Shown here: piece by piece, positions 22,246-40,056 of the stretch
Numbering within the stretch: position 1 is the first letter of the stretch
Layout of the letters: each line of letters starts with the position of its first letter
Assembly: GCA_029960085.1 (NCBI GenBank)
Contig: JASCPG010000017.1
Span: 1 to 48,754 of the forward strand
Direction: 5' to 3'
Source: Microbacteriaceae bacterium PS02067
GTDB taxonomy: Bacteria > Actinomycetota > Actinomycetes > Actinomycetales > Microbacteriaceae
Length of the DNA stretch: 48,754 nucleotides
Program-made: the position numbers and the translations under genes
The notes under the pieces: model-generated
Databases searched by the model: none
What the model was told of the DNA's origin: nothing
The model's input: only the letters and a program-made list of their open reading frames with translations

Positions 22246-24891
22246 CTACAGGCGCAGCACCTCGGTCACGCGGACGACGGCCGTGCCCGCCTCGGCGGAT
22301 GCCGCGAGGTCGACCTCCGCACGGATGCGCCAGTCGTGGTCGCCGGCCGGGTCGTCGATCGTCTGCTCGACGCGCCACACGCCCGACGCGGCATCCGTCT
22401 CGTCGATCATGCAGAGCCGGGGCGAGCGCGCCGGGCCGCCGGTGAGGATCTCGTCGTGCTCGTCGTAGTAGGCATCCAGCACCTCGGGCCAGCCCGCGTG
22501 GGGGTCGAGCGCGACGAGCGCGTCGTCTTCCTGCAGGGCGGCGAGCTGCACGCGGCGGAACAGCTCGTTGCGCACGAGCACCGTGAACGCGCGCCGGTTG
22601 GTGAGCACCGACGGGGGTGCGGGCGGCACGACGGGAGCGTCGTCCTCGGGGAGGTGGGCGGTGGCATCCACCAGCGCGGACCACTCGTCGACGAGGCTCG
22701 AGTCGACCTGCCGCACGAGCTCGCCCAGCCACTCGATGACATCCATCAGCTCGTCGGTGCGCGCCTCGGCGGGGACCGTCTGACGGATCGCGCGGTAGGC
22801 GTCCGACAGGTATCTCAGCACGAGACCTTCGCTGCGCTGCAGCTGGTAGAACGAGACATATTCCGCGAACGACATGGCCCGCTCGAACATGTCGCGCACG
22901 ACAGACTTCGGGCTCAGCGCGAAGTCGCGCACCCACGGCTGGCTCGACGCGAACACCTCGAACGACTGGTCGAGCAGCTCGGCGAGCGGCTTCGGCCACG
23001 TGATCTCTTCGAGCAGCGCCATGCGCTCGTCGTACTCGATGCCGTCGCGCTTCATCGCGGCCACCGCCTCGCCGCGCGCCTTGTACTCCTGCTGCGAGAG
23101 GACCGCCCGCGGGTCGTCGAGGGTCGCCTCGATCACACTCACGACGTCGAGGGCGTAGTGCCCCGTGCCGACTCCGGCCGATTCCTGGCCCGAACTCCTC
23201 CGATCCGCCGCCGATTCGGTCGAATCGGCCGGCTCCGGCCCTCCGCCGCGAGAAATGGAGGAGTTCGGGACATCCTCGTCGGGAGACAGCAGCCCGATCG
23301 CGGCGAGTGCGAACGGCGACAACGGCTGATTCAGGGCGAAATTCGGCTGCAGATCGACCGTCAGCCGGATGAGCGGGGCACCCGGCCCGCCGGGCCCGGC
23401 CCCGGGCCGGGCATCCCCGGCAGGGAGGATCTCGACGATCCCGGCATCCACGAGCGTGCGGAAGATGGCGATCGCGCGGCGCGCGAGCGCGTACTTCCGT
23501 GCGCGGGGCTCGTGATTGTCGAACACGAGCGAGCGGACGTTCCCGAAGACGTCACCGCCGCGCCCGATCACGTTGATGAGCATCGCCGCCGTCAGTCGCA
23601 GCTGCGGCACGAGCGGCTCGGGCGGCGCGGCGATGAGGCGCTCGTACGAGCCCTCACCCCAGTTCACGACGCCGGTCGGAGCCTTCTTGCGGACGATCTT
23701 CTTGCGCTTGGCAGGGTCGTCGCCCGCCTTGGCGAGGGCGACCGCGTTCTCGATCTCCCACTCGGGCGCCATCACGACGACGTTGCCGTACGGGTCGAAC
23801 CCGGCGCGCCCCGCCCGACCCGCGACCTGATGGAACTCGCGGGCCGAGAGCTGGCGCATCTTCGTGCCGTCGTACTTCGACAGCGCCGTGATGACGACGG
23901 TCCGGATCGGCACGTTGATGCCGACCCCGAGGGTGTCGGTGCCGCAGATCACCTTGAGGAGCCCCCGCTGCGCAAGCGTCTCGACGAGGCGGCGGTACCG
24001 CGGCAGCATGCCCGCGTGGTGGACGCCGATGCCCGACCGCACGAGCCGTGACAGGGTCTGCCCGAACCCCGTCGTGAACCGGAAGCCCCCGATCGCCGCG
24101 GCGATGGCATCCCGCTGTTCGCGAGTCGTGAGCGTGACGGATGCCAGGGCCTGCGCCCGCTCGAGCGCGGCGGCCTGGGCGAAGTGAACGATGTAGACGG
24201 GAACCTCGCGCTCGTCGACGAGCATCGTGAGCACCTCGTGCACGGGGCGCCGCTCGTACGAGAAATGCAGCGGTACAGGCCGCTCGACGCCCGTGATCTC
24301 GGCGACCGCACGCCCGGTGCGGCGCTCGAGATCGTCGGCGATCGGGGTGACATCGCCGAGCGTCGCCGACATCAGCAGGAACTGCGCACGCGGCAGGAGC
24401 AGCAGCGGCACCTGCCAGGCCCACCCCCGCTCGGGGTCGCCGTAGTAGTGGAACTCGTCCATGACGACCTGGTCGACCGCGGCATCCGTACCTTGACGGA
24501 GCGCGATGTTCGCCAGGATCTCCGCCGTGCAGCACACGATCGGGGCATCCGGGTTGACGGATGAATCGCCCGTGACCATGCCGACGTTCTCCGCCCCGAA
24601 GACCTCGACGAGCGCGAAGAATTTCTCGCTCACCAGCGCCTTGATCGGCGCCGTGTAATAGGAGCGACCGCCGGATGCCAGGCAGATCGCGTGCGCCGCG
24701 ATCGCCACGAGCGACTTGCCCGTGCCGGTCGGGGTCGACAGGATGACGTTCGCTCCCGAGACGAGTTCCATCACGGCCTCGTCCTGCGCGGAGTAGAGCG
24801 TCAGCCCGCGGTCGGCCGCCCATCCCACGAAGCCGTCATAGGCGGCATCCGCCGTCGCGCCGGTCGGCACGGCGTCGGTCAGGGCGGTCAC
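22246..24891 (-). CDS. DEAD/DEAH box helicase with DUF3516 (Ski2/Mtr4-like)
   Basis: The GTG giving (M)TALTDAVP was chosen because the family begins close to this point; a GTG six codons upstream is also possible. The product is 881 residues. Helicase motifs are Walker A LSTPTGTGKSLVAIAAH near residue 48, MDEFHYYGDPERGWAW (DEFH box), LLMSATLGDV, and HQVAGRAGRAGFDPYG. The C-terminal half is DUF3516-like, with FVREL-type helical segments and EGLVLRYLSDAYRAIRQTVP. The family is an actinobacterial Ski2-type nucleic acid helicase of unclear substrate. Residues ~541-567 are an in-frame 27-codon palindromic insertion (23189-23269) in a region that looks like a surface loop. Confidence 0.92.
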   Translation of the reverse strand: MTALTDAVPTGATADAAYDGFVGWAADRGLTLYSAQDEAVMELVSGANVILSTPTGTGKSLVAIAAHAICLASGGRSYYTAPIKALVSEKFFALVEVFGAENVGMVTGDSSVNPDAPIVCCTAEILANIALRQGTDAAVDQVVMDEFHYYGDPERGWAWQVPLLLLPRAQFLLMSATLGDVTPIADDLERRTGRAVAEITGVERPVPLHFSYERRPVHEVLTMLVDEREVPVYIVHFAQAAALERAQALASVTLTTREQRDAIAAAIGGFRFTTGFGQTLSRLVRSGIGVHHAGMLPRYRRLVETLAQRGLLKVICGTDTLGVGINVPIRTVVITALSKYDGTKMRQLSAREFHQVAGRAGRAGFDPYGNVVVMAPEWEIENAVALAKAGDDPAKRKKIVRKKAPTGVVNWGEGSYERLIAAPPEPLVPQLRLTAAMLINVIGRGGDVFGNVRSLVFDNHEPRARKYALARRAIAIFRTLVDAGIVEILPAGDARPGAGPGGPGAPLIRLTVDLQPNFALNQPLSPFALAAIGLLSPDEDVPNSSISRGGGPEPADSTESAADRRSSGQESAGVGTGHYALDVVSVIEATLDDPRAVLSQQEYKARGEAVAAMKRDGIEYDERMALLEEITWPKPLAELLDQSFEVFASSQPWVRDFALSPKSVVRDMFERAMSFAEYVSFYQLQRSEGLVLRYLSDAYRAIRQTVPAEARTDELMDVIEWLGELVRQVDSSLVDEWSALVDATAHLPEDDAPVVPPAPPSVLTNRRAFTVLVRNELFRRVQLAALQEDDALVALDPHAGWPEVLDAYYDEHDEILTGGPARSPRLCMIDETDAASGVWRVEQTIDDPAGDHDWRIRAEVDLAASAEAGTAVVRVTEVLRL
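23189..23269 (-). repeat. 81-bp in-frame palindromic element, copy A
   Basis: Terminal arms CCCGAACTCCTCC and GGAGGAGTTCGGG are perfect 13-bp inverted repeats, 81 bp end to end. The copy lies inside the DUF3516 helicase gene and is read in frame on the minus strand as PNSSISRGGGPEP...DRRSSG. The interior has diverged from the copies in the DEAD-box helicase, but TTCTCGCG next to the arm and the arms are kept. Confidence 0.9.
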
Positions 24892-30389: not shown

Positions 30390-32264
30390 GTGACCTCTGC
30401 CGTCTCCGGAGCGGCCGCGGGCGACCCCGTCGGGCCGCGTCCGCCGCTCGTGAGCGTGCGCGGACTCGGCATCCGTCACGACGGTGCGACGACCTGGTCG
30501 CCCGCCGACGCGAGCTTCGACATCGCCGCCGGCGAGGTGGTGCTCCTGCTCGGACCGAGCGGCGCCGGCAAGTCGACGCTCGCGCTCGCGCTCGATGGGC
30601 TGATCCCCCACGCGGTGCCCGCGGCGCTCGAGGGGAGCATCGTGGTCGACGGTCTCGACACTCGGGAGTCCCTGGTCGCGGAGCTCAGCACGCGGGTCGC
30701 GATGGTCTTCCAGGATCCCGACGCACAGCTGGTCACGGGGACACTGCTCGACGAGGTGGCGTTCGGTCCGGAGAACCTCCGGATGCCTGTCGACGACGTC
30801 CTCGCCCGCGCCGAGGATTCCCTGCGCCGGGTCGGCCTCTGGGAACGGCGGGGCGAGAACCCGGATCGGCTGAGCGGTGGCGGCCGGCAGCGGCTTGCGA
30901 TCGCGTGCGCGCTCGCGATGGGTTCACCGCTGCTCGTGCTCGACGAGCCGACGGCGAACCTCGACCCGCAGGGCATCGAGGAGGTGTACGCCGCGCTCGG
31001 CGAACTGGTCGCGGCGGGAGATCGGGCGATCCTGCTCGTGGAGCACAATCTGGATGCCGCCGCGCGCCTCACCGACCGGGTGGTCGTCCTGGATCAGGCC
31101 GGGCGGACCGTCGCCGACGGCACCGCCGACGAGGTGCTGCGCGGTCGGGCGGACGAGTTGCACGAGATGGGCGTGTGGCTCCCCGTCGCGACGCTCGCCG
31201 CGATGCGGCTGCGCTCCGCCGGCTGGGCGCTCGACCCGCTCCCCCTCGACCCCGACGAGCTGCGTGTCGCCCTGGATGCCGCCACGTCTCCGGCACCCGC
31301 AACCGCCGTCCCGAACTCCTCCACTTCTCTCGCCGAGACGGGGGTATCGCCCGAATCCGGGACCGACGCGACATATCGGAGGAGTTCGGGTCGGGCGACG
31401 GGAGATGCGGCGCCCCTCATCCGTGTGCGGGGGCTGCGCACGCGACGCGGACGGGCCGAAATCCTGCACGGCATCGACCTCGACGTGCGCGCGGGCGAGT
31501 TCGTCGCGATCGTCGGGGCGAACGGTGCGGGCAAGACGACGCTCCTGCAGTCGATCGCCGGGGTCGTGCCGGTCCCCCGCAGGCAGGTCACCGTCAACGG
31601 GGTCGACGTCTCGCGCATCGACCTGCGCTCGCTGTCGCGCCGCATCGGGTTCGTCTTCCAGAACCCCGAGCACCAGTTCATCGCCCCCACCGTGCACGAC
31701 GAGCTCGCCCACGGGCTGCGCCTGCAGCACCTTCCCGAGGCGGAGGTCGAGCAGCGCGTGCACGACGTGCTGCGCCGGTTCGGACTCGAGGACAAGGCCG
31801 ATGTGCACCCGTTCCTCCTGTCCGGCGGGCAGAAGCGGCGACTGTCGGTCGGGACGGCTCTCGTCGCCGGTGCCCCCGTGCTCGCCCTCGACGAGCCCAC
31901 GTTCGGGCAGGACCGCGCGCGGGCGGACGAGCTGCTGGGCCTCCTCCAGGGCCTCAACCGCGACGGCACAACGGTGCTCGTCGTCACGCACGACATGCAG
32001 CTGGTCACCGAGTACGCGACCCGCACGATCGTCATCGGCGACGGCAGGGTCCTCGCGGATGCCCCGACGGCCGAGGTCTTCTCGGACGAAACCCTGATCC
32101 GCTCGGCCGGACTGCGCCTGCCGCCGCTGCGACGGGCCTTCGCGGGTCTCGAGCGCCACCCGGAGCTTGCGGGCATCACGCGCCTCGCCGACGTCCCGTA
32201 CGGCTCGGGCTTCGACCCGGCACCGGCCTCAGCCACCCCCACCGAACCCACGGCCGCCCGATGA
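30390..32264 (+). CDS. Fused ECF-type ABC ATPase (two ATPase domains)
   Basis: The GTG giving (M)TSAVSGAAAGDPVGP starts a 624-residue protein with two complete ABC domains, equivalent to EcfA1 and EcfA2 joined in one chain. Domain 1 has Walker A GPSGAGKSTLALAL near residue 55, signature LSGGGRQR and Walker B LLVLDEPTANLDPQG. Domain 2 has Walker A GANGAGKTTLLQSI near residue 375, signature LSGGQKRR and LALDEPTFGQDRAR. Residues ~307-333, in the linker between the domains, are an in-frame palindromic element (31310-31390). The protein drives import through EcfT and the S components. Its stop overlaps the ecfT start (ATGA). An iron box lies just upstream. Confidence 0.93.
   Translation: MTSAVSGAAAGDPVGPRPPLVSVRGLGIRHDGATTWSPADASFDIAAGEVVLLLGPSGAGKSTLALALDGLIPHAVPAALEGSIVVDGLDTRESLVAELSTRVAMVFQDPDAQLVTGTLLDEVAFGPENLRMPVDDVLARAEDSLRRVGLWERRGENPDRLSGGGRQRLAIACALAMGSPLLVLDEPTANLDPQGIEEVYAALGELVAAGDRAILLVEHNLDAAARLTDRVVVLDQAGRTVADGTADEVLRGRADELHEMGVWLPVATLAAMRLRSAGWALDPLPLDPDELRVALDAATSPAPATAVPNSSTSLAETGVSPESGTDATYRRSSGRATGDAAPLIRVRGLRTRRGRAEILHGIDLDVRAGEFVAIVGANGAGKTTLLQSIAGVVPVPRRQVTVNGVDVSRIDLRSLSRRIGFVFQNPEHQFIAPTVHDELAHGLRLQHLPEAEVEQRVHDVLRRFGLEDKADVHPFLLSGGQKRRLSVGTALVAGAPVLALDEPTFGQDRARADELLGLLQGLNRDGTTVLVVTHDMQLVTEYATRTIVIGDGRVLADAPTAEVFSDETLIRSAGLRLPPLRRAFAGLERHPELAGITRLADVPYGSGFDPAPASATPTEPTAAR
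31310..31390 (+). repeat. 81-bp in-frame palindromic element, copy B
   Basis: Arms CCCGAACTCCTCC and GGAGGAGTTCGGG are perfect 13-bp inverted repeats with exactly the same 81-bp length as the other copies. It lies in the linker of the fused ECF ATPase and is read on the plus strand as PNSSTSLAETG...YRRSSG, the same frame as all other copies. The interior is the most diverged. Confidence 0.88.
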
Positions 32265-34547: not shown

Positions 34548-35711
34548 CTACCGCTTGCCGACGATCTGGCGCGCGACGAGGTCGCGCATGATCTCGTTGG
34601 TGCCGCCGTAGATGCGGTGCACACGGGCATCCAGGTATGCGCGGGCGATCGGGTACTCGGTGATGTAGCCGTACCCGCCGTGCAGCTGAACGCCGATGTC
34701 GAGGAGCTCCGCCTCGCGGTCCGTCGCCCAGAACTTGACTTTCGCGGCCTCTTCGGCGGTGAGCTTCTGCTCCGCGTAGAGCTCCATCGCGCGGTCGACG
34801 TACGCCCACATGACATCGACGGTCGTCGCCATGTCGGCGAGGTGGAAGCGCGTGTTCTGGAAGTCGGCGATCCGCTCACCGAACGCCTCGCGGCTGATGA
34901 CGTAGTCGCGCGTCCAGTGGAACGCCGCCTCGCCCGCTGCCGCCGCGGCGACGCCGATCGACAGGCGCTCGAGGGGCAGGTTCATCATGAGCTGGATGAA
35001 GCCGAGACCCTCCTTGCCGCCGATGAGGTTGGCGTCCGGGACGAAGACGTCGGTGAACGACAGCTCCGCCGTGTCCCACCCGTGGAAGCCCATCTTCTCG
35101 AGCTTCTTGCCGTGCTCGAAGCCCTCCATGCCGTCTTCGAGGATCAGCAGGCTGAAGGCATCCGGCCGATTCCCCTCGCCCGTCTTCACGAAGGTGACGA
35201 CGATGTCGGCGGTCTTCCCCGACGAGATGAACGTCTTCGCGCCGTTGACGAGGTAGCCGCCGTCGACCTTCTTCGCCGTCGTCTTGATGCCGCGCAGGTC
35301 CGATCCCGCACCGGGCTCGGTCATCGCGAGGGCACCGAGGATCTCGCCGGTCGCCATGCCCGGGAGCCACTTCTCCTTCTGCTCCTGCGTGCCCATGTGC
35401 ACGATGTACGGCACGGCGAGGTCGTCCTGGATGCCGAAGGCGCCGGCGAGCGAGCCCTGGCCCGCCCCGATGACCTCTTCGAGCACGATGGAGCGGAAGC
35501 GGTAGTCCTGCAGCATGCCTGCACCGCCGAACTCCTCCGGCACGCTCAGCCCGATGATGCCGGACTCGCCCGCGGCGAGCATCGTGGCGCGGTCTACCTC
35601 GCCGTCCGCCTCCCACTGCTTGCGCTTCTCTTCGGTCGCGTAGCGCTTGACGAACTCCCTGACGACGTCGCGGAACGCCTCGTGGTCCTCGTCGTAGATC
35701 TTGCGTTCCAT
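34548..35711 (-). CDS. Acyl-CoA dehydrogenase
   Basis: The 387-residue flavoenzyme has normal length for the family. It shows the N-terminal helical domain (SVPEEFGGAGM), the beta-domain FAD contact LGALAMTEPGAGSDLRGIKT near residue 125, and the C-terminal domain with FQNTRFHLADM. The C-terminal signature QLHGGYGYITEYPIARAYLD is followed by VHRIYGGTNEIMRDLVARQI, where the catalytic base is expected at a Gly-rich position near the end as in short/medium/long-chain enzymes. It oxidises acyl-CoA with FAD and passes electrons to ETF. It converges on the ECF operon with only 18 bp between. Its upstream region has a candidate operator core also found before the acyl-CoA oxidase-like gene. Confidence 0.94.
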   Translation of the reverse strand: MERKIYDEDHEAFRDVVREFVKRYATEEKRKQWEADGEVDRATMLAAGESGIIGLSVPEEFGGAGMLQDYRFRSIVLEEVIGAGQGSLAGAFGIQDDLAVPYIVHMGTQEQKEKWLPGMATGEILGALAMTEPGAGSDLRGIKTTAKKVDGGYLVNGAKTFISSGKTADIVVTFVKTGEGNRPDAFSLLILEDGMEGFEHGKKLEKMGFHGWDTAELSFTDVFVPDANLIGGKEGLGFIQLMMNLPLERLSIGVAAAAAGEAAFHWTRDYVISREAFGERIADFQNTRFHLADMATTVDVMWAYVDRAMELYAEQKLTAEEAAKVKFWATDREAELLDIGVQLHGGYGYITEYPIARAYLDARVHRIYGGTNEIMRDLVARQIVGKR

Positions 35712-37680: not shown

Positions 37681-40056
37681 TCAGCGGTCGACGTCGGACG
37701 CCTGACGCCCTGCCAGCTCCTCCAGCAGATCGTCACCGGGACGGGCATCCTCGAACGGCGCGTCGATCTCCGCACGCTCCAGCATCTCCGTCATGCGGCG
37801 ACGGCGCTGGCGGGCGACGAGAGTCACGACGGTGCCGCTGCGGCCCGCGCGACCGGTGCGCCCCGAGCGGTGCAGATACGTCTTGTACTCGTCGGGGGCA
37901 TCCGCCTGGATCACGAGATCGATGTCGTCGACGTGGATGCCGCGGGCCGCGACATCCGTCGCGACGAGCACGTTCACGCGCCCGGACGTCAGACGCTCGA
38001 GGTTGCGCGTGCGCTTGGCCTGATTGAGGTCGCCATGCAGGGCCACCGCCTTGACGCCGGCGTCGTCGAACTGCTCGGCGAGCATCTCAGCGTACGCGCG
38101 GGTGCGGGTGAAGACGAGGGTCTTGCCGTCGCGGTCGACGAGGCTCGTGAGGATCTCGGCCTTGTCGCGGTGGTCGATGACGAGCACACGGTGGTCGATC
38201 GTGCCGGAGTCCTGGTCTTCGCCCGCGACCTCGTAGACGGCCGGGTCGACGAGGAACTCGTCGACGAGTGCCGCGACCTCGCGGTCGAGCGTCGCCGAGA
38301 AGAGGAGCTTCTGGGCATCCGGGTCGACGAGGCGGAGGATCCGCTGCATCGGCTCGAGGAAGCCGAGCTCCGACATGTGGTCGGCCTCGTCGAGGACGAC
38401 GACGCGCACCTCGGAGAGGTCGAGCTTGCCCTGCTCCTGGAGGTCTTCGATGCGTCCCGGGGTGCCGATGACGATGTCGACGCCCTTCTTGAGCGCGCCG
38501 ACCTGGCGGGCTTGGGGCACGCCGCCGTAGACCTGGGTCGTGAACAGGCCGACGCTGCGCGCGATCGGCTGGACCGTGCGGTCGATCTGCAGCGCGAGTT
38601 CGCGCGTCGGCGCGAGGATCAGGGCGCGCGGGCTGCGGCCGAACTCGCGGCGCTTGCCGGCCTGGCTGCGCAGGACCGCCTCGACGAGTGGTGCGCCGAA
38701 CGCGATCGTCTTGCCAGAGCCGGTGCGCCCGCGCGCGAGCACATCCTTGCCCTCGAGGATCGGGGCGATGGTCGCGGCCTGGATCGGGAACGGCGTCTCG
38801 GCGCCGAGTTCGGCGAGCGAGCGCACGATGTTGTCGCCGAGGCCGAGCTCCGCGAAGGTCACGTCCGCAACGGCCTCGGCCTGGATGGCCTCGGCCTGCA
38901 GCTTCTCGTGCACCGTGTCGGCGTGCTCCTCGTAGGCCTTGCGCTTCGCGGCATCCTTCGCGTCGGCGTGCCAGTCGGAACGGTTGCCTCCGTACGACGG
39001 CCGGTCGTCGCGGCGCGGCCGGTCGTCGCGGTGCCCAGATCGGTCCGAACTCCTCCAATCCGAGCCGTTTCGGGCCGAATCCCCCCGGAACGGCCGACTC
39101 TCGCGAGAAGTGGAGGAGTTCGGGCCACCCCGCTCCCCCCGTGATCCCCGGTCGTCCCGGTAGGTCGGCCGGTCGTCGCGGCCGGACCGGGCGTCGCGGC
39201 CGGACCGGTCATCCCGGTAGGCGGGACGGTCATCCCTGCGGGGCCGGTCATCCCGGTAGGTCGGCCGGTCCTCGCGGCGGGGCCGGTCGTCGCGGGCGGG
39301 ACGGGCGTCGCGGGCGGGACGGGCCGAACTCCTCCAGTCCGAGCCGTTTCGGGCCGAATCCCCCCGGAACGGGCGACTCTCGCGAGAAGTGGAGGAGTTC
39401 GGGTCGCGGCGAGGGCGATCCGTCGAGCCGGGGCGGTCCTCGCGGCGGCCCGCACGATCGTCACGGTAGGCGGGACGGTCGTCGCGACGGGACCGGTCAT
39501 CACGGTAGGCCGGACGGTCCGAACTCCTCCAGTCCGAGCCGTTTCGGGCCGAATCAGCCCGGAACGGGCGATCCTCGCGAGAAGTGGAGGAGTTCGGGTC
39601 GCGGCGCGCGCTCGAGCCGGAGCGGTCGTCGCGGTACGGACGGTCGTCGCGGCGCGGGCGGGCGGTCGAAGCGGCACCGTAAGGGCGGTCGGCCGAACCC
39701 GGCCGGCCGTCACGACCGGCGCGGTCATCACGGTAGGCGCGGCCGTCGCGACCGGCGCGGTCATCACGCTGGGCACGGTCGTCGCGGTGCGGGTCGCGAG
39801 CATGGTTGCGGATGCCTCGGGCCTCGTCGCGGCCGGCGCGCTCCTGCGCACTCCAGCGCTGCTTCTTGGCGGAAGCCTCGTCGGCGGCGGGCTCGGGGCG
39901 GTAGCCGCGGTGGCTCGGGCTCTTGGAGCCGGGCTTGCCGGCCGATGACTGGCCGGGGCGACGCTTCGCGTCCTGGTACGACGTCTTCTTCGCGCCGTAG
40001 CGCGGCTCGAAACTCTGCGCGCGGCTGCCGCCGGCGGGCTTCTTGTTCTTGGGCAT
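37681..40056 (-). CDS. DEAD-box RNA helicase with long Arg/Asp-rich N-terminus
   Basis: The ATG follows GAGGA at good spacing; the product is 791 residues. Residues 1 to ~398 are low-complexity, built of RDDRP/YRDDR repeats and basic stretches, and hold three in-frame copies of the 81-bp palindromic element. The helicase core fills residues ~399-791: VTFAELGLGD, Q motif TPFPIQAATI, Walker A RGRTGSGKTIAFG, LDEADHMSELGF, LLFSATLDREVAAL, HRSGRTGRAGRSG. The order is reversed from many DEAD proteins, where the basic tail is C-terminal. It probably remodels RNA in ribosome assembly or cold adaptation; the disordered tail may bind RNA or drive condensation. The 5' region contains a strong hairpin. 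Confidence 0.93.
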   Translation of the reverse strand: MPKNKKPAGGSRAQSFEPRYGAKKTSYQDAKRRPGQSSAGKPGSKSPSHRGYRPEPAADEASAKKQRWSAQERAGRDEARGIRNHARDPHRDDRAQRDDRAGRDGRAYRDDRAGRDGRPGSADRPYGAASTARPRRDDRPYRDDRSGSSARRDPNSSTSREDRPFRADSARNGSDWRSSDRPAYRDDRSRRDDRPAYRDDRAGRREDRPGSTDRPRRDPNSSTSRESRPFRGDSARNGSDWRSSARPARDARPARDDRPRREDRPTYRDDRPRRDDRPAYRDDRSGRDARSGRDDRPTYRDDRGSRGERGGPNSSTSRESRPFRGDSARNGSDWRSSDRSGHRDDRPRRDDRPSYGGNRSDWHADAKDAAKRKAYEEHADTVHEKLQAEAIQAEAVADVTFAELGLGDNIVRSLAELGAETPFPIQAATIAPILEGKDVLARGRTGSGKTIAFGAPLVEAVLRSQAGKRREFGRSPRALILAPTRELALQIDRTVQPIARSVGLFTTQVYGGVPQARQVGALKKGVDIVIGTPGRIEDLQEQGKLDLSEVRVVVLDEADHMSELGFLEPMQRILRLVDPDAQKLLFSATLDREVAALVDEFLVDPAVYEVAGEDQDSGTIDHRVLVIDHRDKAEILTSLVDRDGKTLVFTRTRAYAEMLAEQFDDAGVKAVALHGDLNQAKRTRNLERLTSGRVNVLVATDVAARGIHVDDIDLVIQADAPDEYKTYLHRSGRTGRAGRSGTVVTLVARQRRRRMTEMLERAEIDAPFEDARPGDDLLEELAGRQASDVDR
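39044..39124 (-). repeat. 81-bp in-frame palindromic element, copy C
   Basis: Arms CCGAACTCCTCC/GGAGGAGTTCGG (12 bp) with an inner stem CCGTTTCGGG/CCCGGAACGG and the palindrome TCTCGCGAGA. It is read in the DEAD-box helicase as PNSSTSRESRPFRGDSARNG and then SDWRSSD, residues ~311-337. Confidence 0.92.
39323..39403 (-). repeat. 81-bp in-frame palindromic element, copy D
   Basis: This copy has the same arms and length and differs from copy C at about two interior bases. Protein reading is PNSSTSRESRPFRGDSARNG then SDWRSSA, residues ~218-244 of the DEAD-box helicase. Direct duplication within the gene, after an original insertion, is likely. Confidence 0.92.
39518..39598 (-). repeat. 81-bp in-frame palindromic element, copy E
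   Basis: This copy has the same arms and length, with a handful of interior changes from copy D (GAATCAGCCC instead of GAATCCCCCC, and ATCCTCG instead of ACTCTCG). Protein reading is PNSSTSREDRPFRADSARNG then SDWRSSD, residues ~153-179. Confidence 0.92.

Follow-up and report, generated by a model that had tools for sequence, protein, structure and literature searches.

Five paired repeats in three genes

The 48,754-bp window analysed here (the whole stretch taken from contig JASCPG010000017.1 of Microbacteriaceae bacterium PS02067) contains five copies of an inverted-repeat element, each exactly 81 bp long with arms CCGAACTCCTCC / GGAGGAGTTCGG. The copies are spread over three genes and both strands are represented. 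Pairs of the same arms are dispersed through the genome and surround a gene for an AbiEi-like/Vsr-like protein, which we refer to as the partner gene; here we describe the paired sites, the partner gene and how the two are related.

Element 1 (23189..23269, reverse strand; arms at 23190-23201 and 23257-23268) belongs to the class with a 77-bp core and is located in a linker of a DEAD/DUF3516 helicase gene (22246..24891, reverse strand). Element 2 (31310..31390, forward strand; arms at 31311-31322 and 31378-31389) is in the linker separating the two ABC ATPase domains of a gene at 30390..32264 (forward strand) that is EcfA-like by eye. The other three are on the reverse strand and share a DEAD-box helicase gene (37681..40056, reverse strand), with element 3 (39044..39124; arms at 39045-39056 and 39112-39123) in its low-complexity N-terminal tail, followed by elements 4 (39323..39403) and 5 (39518..39598). 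These three form a local family with interior identities of 0.89–0.98 and are not three independent insertions; the interiors of elements 3 and 4 are 98% identical while their 30-bp flanks are only 43% and 33% identical, and the interior of element 5 is 89–91% identical to both. The reading frame is the same in all five copies (PNSS...RSS), and the peptide interiors are unlike one another across the three host genes. The initial annotation described the copies as stop-free and as lying in linkers or tails. The first is true of the frame that is read, but the other frames are open too, except for one in copy 5; the second holds for the window (two linkers and one low-complexity N-terminal tail), but location within genes is not general.

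A lone 12-base arm is present at 35527-35538 in an acyl-CoA-dehydrogenase-like gene (named by eye). It is probably unrelated, since at this position GAGGAGTTCGG codes for PEEFGG, a native part of the protein.

Pairs across the genome are mainly intergenic

A search of the 3.03-Mb genome for the paired pattern with 11-base arms gave 25 matches compared with none for the reversed control, and the pattern is therefore far above chance; there are 66 exact 12-base arms. A scan tolerating up to three mismatches, covering 19 stretches around arms outside the window, gave 37 inward-facing pairs together with 15 outward-facing and 12 same-direction pairs. We count 31 pairs in total. Of these, 25 are exact, another is an exact pair of 99 bp, and the remaining five have one or two mismatches over both arms together. 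Five uncounted pairs are nested in or overlap counted ones (L067 1994-2110, L074 2368-2493, L076 3079-3136, L080 3494-3595 and L084 893-972), and one (L084 2043-2123, spacing 81), with three mismatches in one arm, is possibly a worn element.

When open reading frames (ORFs) are called and scored by codon usage, 19 of the 31 pairs are wholly intergenic, five lie across a gene edge, and seven are within a called ORF (five of them in the window, a sixth at the 5' end of rdgB, and a seventh in an ORF that has no Pfam match). The element is mainly intergenic. In-frame insertion into protein genes, proposed initially as its general behaviour, is thus not borne out; the same annotation had named beforehand a majority of intergenic copies as the observation that would overturn it, and 19 of 31 is such a majority. 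The 24 proteins encoded at or beside the elements of this genome (a photolyase, an aromatic lyase, a thiolase, purH and others) have no common function, which led us to reject a regulon defined by function, and no transposase is among those 24.

One array (L067; 1820-1909 and 1995-2084) has three exact elements in this genome and two in Microbacterium sp. SCN 70-27 (L016), which carries the same species label, so that array length varies within one species. A near-perfect pair (L073 2874-2953, contig C94) reaches from the upstream region of a galT-like gene across its start, and lies beside a gene for a LacI-type regulator; both genes were named by eye. Near two element arrays are paralogous gene clusters (L081 6111-6809 and L083 3479-4150) whose first protein is WXG100-like, the Pfam match being weak for the L083 copy; both resemble polymorphic secreted-protein loci.

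Distribution among genomes and at orthologous sites

Among 58 genomes, comprising the window's own and relatives, the pair was found in its own genome only. Across 366 genomes of the wider genus, 12 have CGAACTCCTCC pairs and a different 27 have CATAACTCC pairs; the latter reach 25 copies, and their further arm bases are genome-specific. Named carriers are Microbacterium sp. SCN 70-27, Microbacteriaceae bacterium PS02068, M. hominis, M. aurantiacum and oral taxon 186; genome G216 is taken as SCN 70-27, and G309 as PS02068, from matching counts and sequences. Viral contigs gave no matches, in a search that did not include phage and plasmid record collections.

We found 27 helicase orthologues and aligned 26 of them, no protein having been obtained for G085. 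The segment is present in eight, three of these having other arms, and absent in 18, two of which (G153 and G204) have other, longer linkers. The initial description of a dispersed, historically mobile inverted-repeat element of Microbacterium, able to sit in frame in protein linkers, is upheld.

Arms, spacing and A/T rhythm are conserved

The conserved part of the element is its arms of about 12 bp. Interiors are mostly unrelated, with a mean identity of 0.38 in the window's genome and 0.39 in PS02068, and the exceptions are local duplicates and an rdgB-like copy described below. Among 42 non-redundant elements with exact arms the pair lengths are 77–79 bp (32 elements), 88–91 bp (nine) and 99 bp (one); the searches behind this set admitted 62–92 bp, and other lengths are under-sampled. 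The independent family with CATAACTCC arms has 27 elements, of 69–70, 79–82 and 91–92 bp. Pair lengths therefore step by about one helical turn. Seven loci (L023, L031, L036, L039, L042, L050 and L061) were left out of the length and periodicity counts. Six of them come from outside the genus and resemble chance matches or artefacts, and L031 (Microbacterium sp. 18062, 68 bp) may be real. At L039 (4948-5019) a perfect 72-bp palindrome containing the arm, at a contig end of a Puniceibacterium metagenome-assembled genome, looks like an assembly artefact.

An A/T rhythm runs through the interiors, phase-locked to the arms at positions 12–15, 23–26 and 33–36 counted from each end. The coherent power is 50.7 at 10.5 bp and below 3 at 6–9 and 12–12.5 bp, and a secondary peak at 13.5 bp reaches 9.8. 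Trimming the arms and another five bases from 34 elements leaves a power of 24.1 at 10 bp, where shuffles reach at most 1.9. The CATAACTCC family behaves similarly, with a power of 55.8 at 10 bp for 16 elements of 79–81 bp (shuffle maximum 8.6), and of 31.1 at 10.5 bp against 11.3 for seven elements of 90–92 bp, which have an extra peak of 19.7 at 8 bp. The rhythm and the stepped lengths fit DNA bent around protein in whole-turn steps better than they fit a selected hairpin.

The initial annotation also suggested selection on a hairpin and on the encoded peptide. RNA folding gives z-scores of -2.9 to -7.2 for eight elements, owing to arm pairing. For the 31 elements with lengths of 77 or 78 bp, the left and right halves of the interior are complementary to the same degree as shuffled halves (0.390 and 0.389 for 13 elements, 0.369 and 0.377 for 18), so no stem is selected past the arms, and there is no Rfam match in the window at gathering thresholds; a hairpin or RNA element was rejected on these grounds. 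Selection on the peptide is unneeded, since only frame-keeping copies would survive inside genes, although it would be in keeping with the recurrence of the PNSS frame.

These results bear directly on the likeness to Rickettsia palindromic elements (RPEs) that had been drawn. RPEs are described as small palindromic elements of about 150 bp, frequently genic and in frame in unrelated genes (PMC10969869), and on the features given in that account small palindromic elements in frame inside unrelated genes are what the two have in common. The elements here are about 80–100 bp, mostly intergenic and have a cognate gene, and the comparison misses this main feature, a nuclease-like gene with the same sites on its flanks. 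An RPE-like palindrome selected for gene insertion, through both peptide and hairpin, would explain why the window's five copies all keep the frame and share a peptide motif, why a second family is in frame in one gene of two strains, and why the RNA folds better than shuffles, although the arms cause the folding. The 19 wholly intergenic pairs largely refute it, and neither the absence of extra complementarity in the interiors nor the different peptides of the three genes agrees with it; we regard this explanation as extremely unlikely.

A gene flanked by the pairs

Four pairs surround a gene for a 287-amino-acid protein (1493-2353) on contig C100 of the window's genome. The product is AbiEi_4/DUF559/MTES_1575-like, with DUF559 reaching the Pfam cut-off in six of eight proteins and MTES_1575 in none of the eight. 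Residues 22–183 are predicted to resemble the AbiEi antitoxin, including its winged helix-turn-helix (wHTH), and residues 188–286 to resemble the catalytic domains of the homing endonuclease I-Bth0305I and of Vsr; the partner protein has, as predicted, a Vsr-like catalytic fold with conserved acidic and His residues. PADLOC AbiEi profiles match it weakly, and a PDB search with the single sequence returned nothing. The AbiEi-like plus DUF559/MTES_1575-like architecture was present in all 18 genomes searched for it, and in a class-wide sample the protein was found in 18 of 79 genomes at E 1e-15.

Relatives of the C100 protein adjoin exact pairs in 12 of 18 genomes searched, and the arms differ between genomes. 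An arm-agnostic scan revealed paralogue-specific pairs at the majority of 30 partner loci, with arms as diverse as TTCCGAAAGCAGGG, GTACCGATTGCAGGA and CACGGATGCAGGG. Pairs on at least one side occur at 29 of the 30 loci compared with 82 of 180 control placements and are common by chance, so only the two-sided measure is informative. By that measure, same-arm pairs lie on both sides at 19 of the 30 loci, which include two same-species duplicates (L172 and L191), as opposed to two of 180 random placements in control loci, which may themselves hold real elements. They were also found at six of 28 further loci, made up of five of 26 outside the window's genome and the third paralogue within it.

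The AbiEi-like fold raises the alternative that the paired sites hold the nuclease inactive in a loop complex, from which site loss or foreign DNA frees it, the pairs acting as the antidote of an addiction or defence system. The weak PADLOC matches fit such a guarded nuclease, as do sites that cluster at the gene and are maintained without visible host function. An AbiEii (DUF1814) toxin partner, however, was not seen by eye among the ORFs of two loci (L074 and L046), and guarding alone would not account for copies at new sites; it seems to us quite improbable.

Arms vary with the partner protein

We compared arm distance with protein distance at 25 loci, for which the arms were typed by hand, those of L192, L195, L197 and L200 resting on weak pairs. 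Not included were L181 and L193, which lack a clear pair, the same-species duplicates L172 and L191, and L189, which was not aligned. The two co-vary (Mantel r 0.43, with none of 5000 permutations as high). In the protein tree, loci with CCGAACTCCTCC, CATAACTCCGGA-like, AACTCCTGCA and AACTCCGCCT arms group with related proteins, and L177 and L185 are placed among neighbours with other arms. The correlation in the wHTH part (0.35) is not above that in other parts (0.40 and 0.33), and shared ancestry contributes to it.

Arms read beside a second paralogue in the window's genome predicted a second dispersed family, which was then found: four such pairs are present in this genome and six in SCN 70-27, all of one length, and none in six other genomes searched. 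A second prediction was tested at the DUF3516 gene, which in G089, G141 and G199 carries an element in the same position but with different arms; in both G141 and G199 the partner gene is flanked on each side by exactly the arms of that genome's own DUF3516 element. In G265, which has a CCGAACTCCTCC element in the DUF3516 gene, the partner gene is flanked by AACTCCTCC-type arms.

That arms follow the paralogue, within a genome and across the tree, is difficult to reconcile with ordinary miniature inverted-repeat transposable elements (MITEs), remnants of an unrelated transposon acting on terminal inverted repeats, to which the nuclease-like gene would be a frequent passenger or target. Small size, inverted ends, dispersal and local duplicates are all MITE-like, but most interiors are non-homologous between copies, spacing is stepped by the DNA helix, and no adjacent transposase was found among the 24 profiled proteins. 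We consider a MITE origin highly improbable.

Evidence of copying

An intergenic element in PS02068 (L024) is a well-supported copied element. It is related to the rdgB element of its own genome, with 80% identity in the interior, where all pairs average 0.39, and 82% over 111 bp; other elements of that genome matched L024 at 74–77% with lower scores in the same search. The interior of the rdgB element is the gene's own 5' coding sequence and is present in several species, from which the direction of copying is taken to be from rdgB. We searched 27 other genomes for the L024 site, and the element is absent from all ten relatives for which an alignment spanning the junction was obtained; in SCN 70-27 the flanks of the site are about 1.7 kb apart. 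The similarity extends past the arms, with no target duplication visible and no clean junction in the ten relatives, a pattern that would suggest repair-type copying and not precise transposition.

At rdgB itself (L078 3155-3234, contig C112) one arm is native coding sequence for HNPHKVEEF, and the other is upstream at a fixed distance, 78 bp from outer end to outer end. This spacing is kept in several species although the DNA between partly varies. In a second family with CCGAAAGCAGGG arms, tandem elements in an ABC-F-like gene (named by eye; L205 and L202) are rearranged between two strains labelled as one species, with nearly identical flanks; both versions are in frame, with open frames of 682 and 720 codons.

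A copy of the rdgB type at a site that is empty in relatives bears on whether the pairs are simply operators. The AbiEi-like protein would then be a DNA-looping repressor, autoregulatory at the pairs beside its own gene, and the dispersed pairs would be regulon or chromosome-organising sites that arise by mutation and duplication, the nuclease-like domain having another job. AbiEi and Rv2827c are reported to bind inverted repeats in their own promoters, with AbiEi bending DNA (PMC7319586); helical spacing and bendable interiors fit loops, and the pair at the galT-like gene is placed as an operator might be. Against this, pairs are also found downstream of the partner gene and some within coding linkers, and the 24 neighbouring proteins share no function. 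We judge operators an unlikely explanation, though one to be taken seriously.

Discussion

The explanation that we consider probable is that these repeats are inverted site pairs, separated by one short loop of DNA (about 78, 89 or 99 bp), that a cognate AbiEi-like/Vsr-like nuclease uses as its units of binding and spreading. Two or more protomers would bind both arms, with the DNA between them wrapping into about one superhelical turn; the nuclease would then nick or break DNA, and repair would put a copy of the paired unit, imprecise at its ends, at a new location. Binding and looping by the partner protein are predicted, and nuclease-driven copying of the paired sites is inferred. New copies would land mostly in intergenic DNA, and inside genes only those with a length divisible by three, in tolerant linkers, would persist; survival of such copies alone explains why the five in the window are in frame.

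Several observations weigh against this explanation. The matching pairs beside the partner gene of G089 are one-sided and have single mismatches, and the partner gene of G240 has GTTCACAACTCCG pairs without an element in the DUF3516 gene, contrary to a simple rule. A mitoribosomal match also weakens the nuclease step.

A more far-reaching version of the nuclease-driven explanation is, taken as a whole, about as likely to be right as wrong. In it, this is an undescribed class of selfish DNA, in which a homing-type nuclease joined to an antitoxin-derived looping module spreads its own site pairs, set one superhelical turn apart, and not its gene. The pairs would take along any DNA between them, host coding sequence like the start of rdgB among it, and each paralogue would have a private site code, giving several independent, co-evolving site populations per genome.

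The closest parallel is with REPINs, described as two short inverted repeats with a short spacer, mostly between genes and in tandem clusters, each class adjoining its own single-copy RAYT (TnpA-REP) gene with which it co-evolves (PMC3116915). On the points covered by that account, inverted doublets with a short spacer, mainly intergenic placement, tandem clusters, a class-specific adjacent gene and co-evolution are all shared. The arms here are not REP palindromes (CCGAACTCCTCC is not self-complementary), no spacer hairpin is selected, lengths step by helical turns, and the gene beside the pairs is AbiEi/Vsr-like and not an HUH/Y1 transposase; RAYT genes elsewhere in the genome were not searched for. 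Our best reading is a REPIN/RAYT-like logic with an unrelated nuclease.

AbiEi and Rv2827c, for which the gap between repeats is described as differing by 10 bp (PMC7319586), share with the partner protein, as far as that source describes them, a wHTH with a C-terminal domain, inverted repeats beside their own gene and, for AbiEi, DNA bending. Here a nuclease-like domain is fused, the repeats are about 55–75 bp apart and dispersed genome-wide, and neither of the two loci viewed showed an AbiEii toxin. The partner system differs from EDxHD homing endonucleases (I-Bth0305I) and Vsr in that no intron or intein was seen, the DNA-binding part is AbiEi-like, and the spreading unit is the paired site and not the gene. 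In open-licence papers we noticed no description of such paired repeats with an AbiEi/DUF559-type gene. This would be an undescribed type of bacterial selfish DNA, though its logic is that of a known lifestyle.

If the nuclease-driven explanation is true, it gives a function to the unexplained AbiEi-like plus DUF559/MTES_1575-like architecture and a second, unrelated solution to the REPIN/RAYT lifestyle. The partner proteins would form a natural series with readable, paralogue-specific DNA codes. The unit is seemingly defined by helix spacing and not by internal sequence, and so could capture and relocate host coding DNA, which would be a direct route to the in-frame insertion of new linker peptides.
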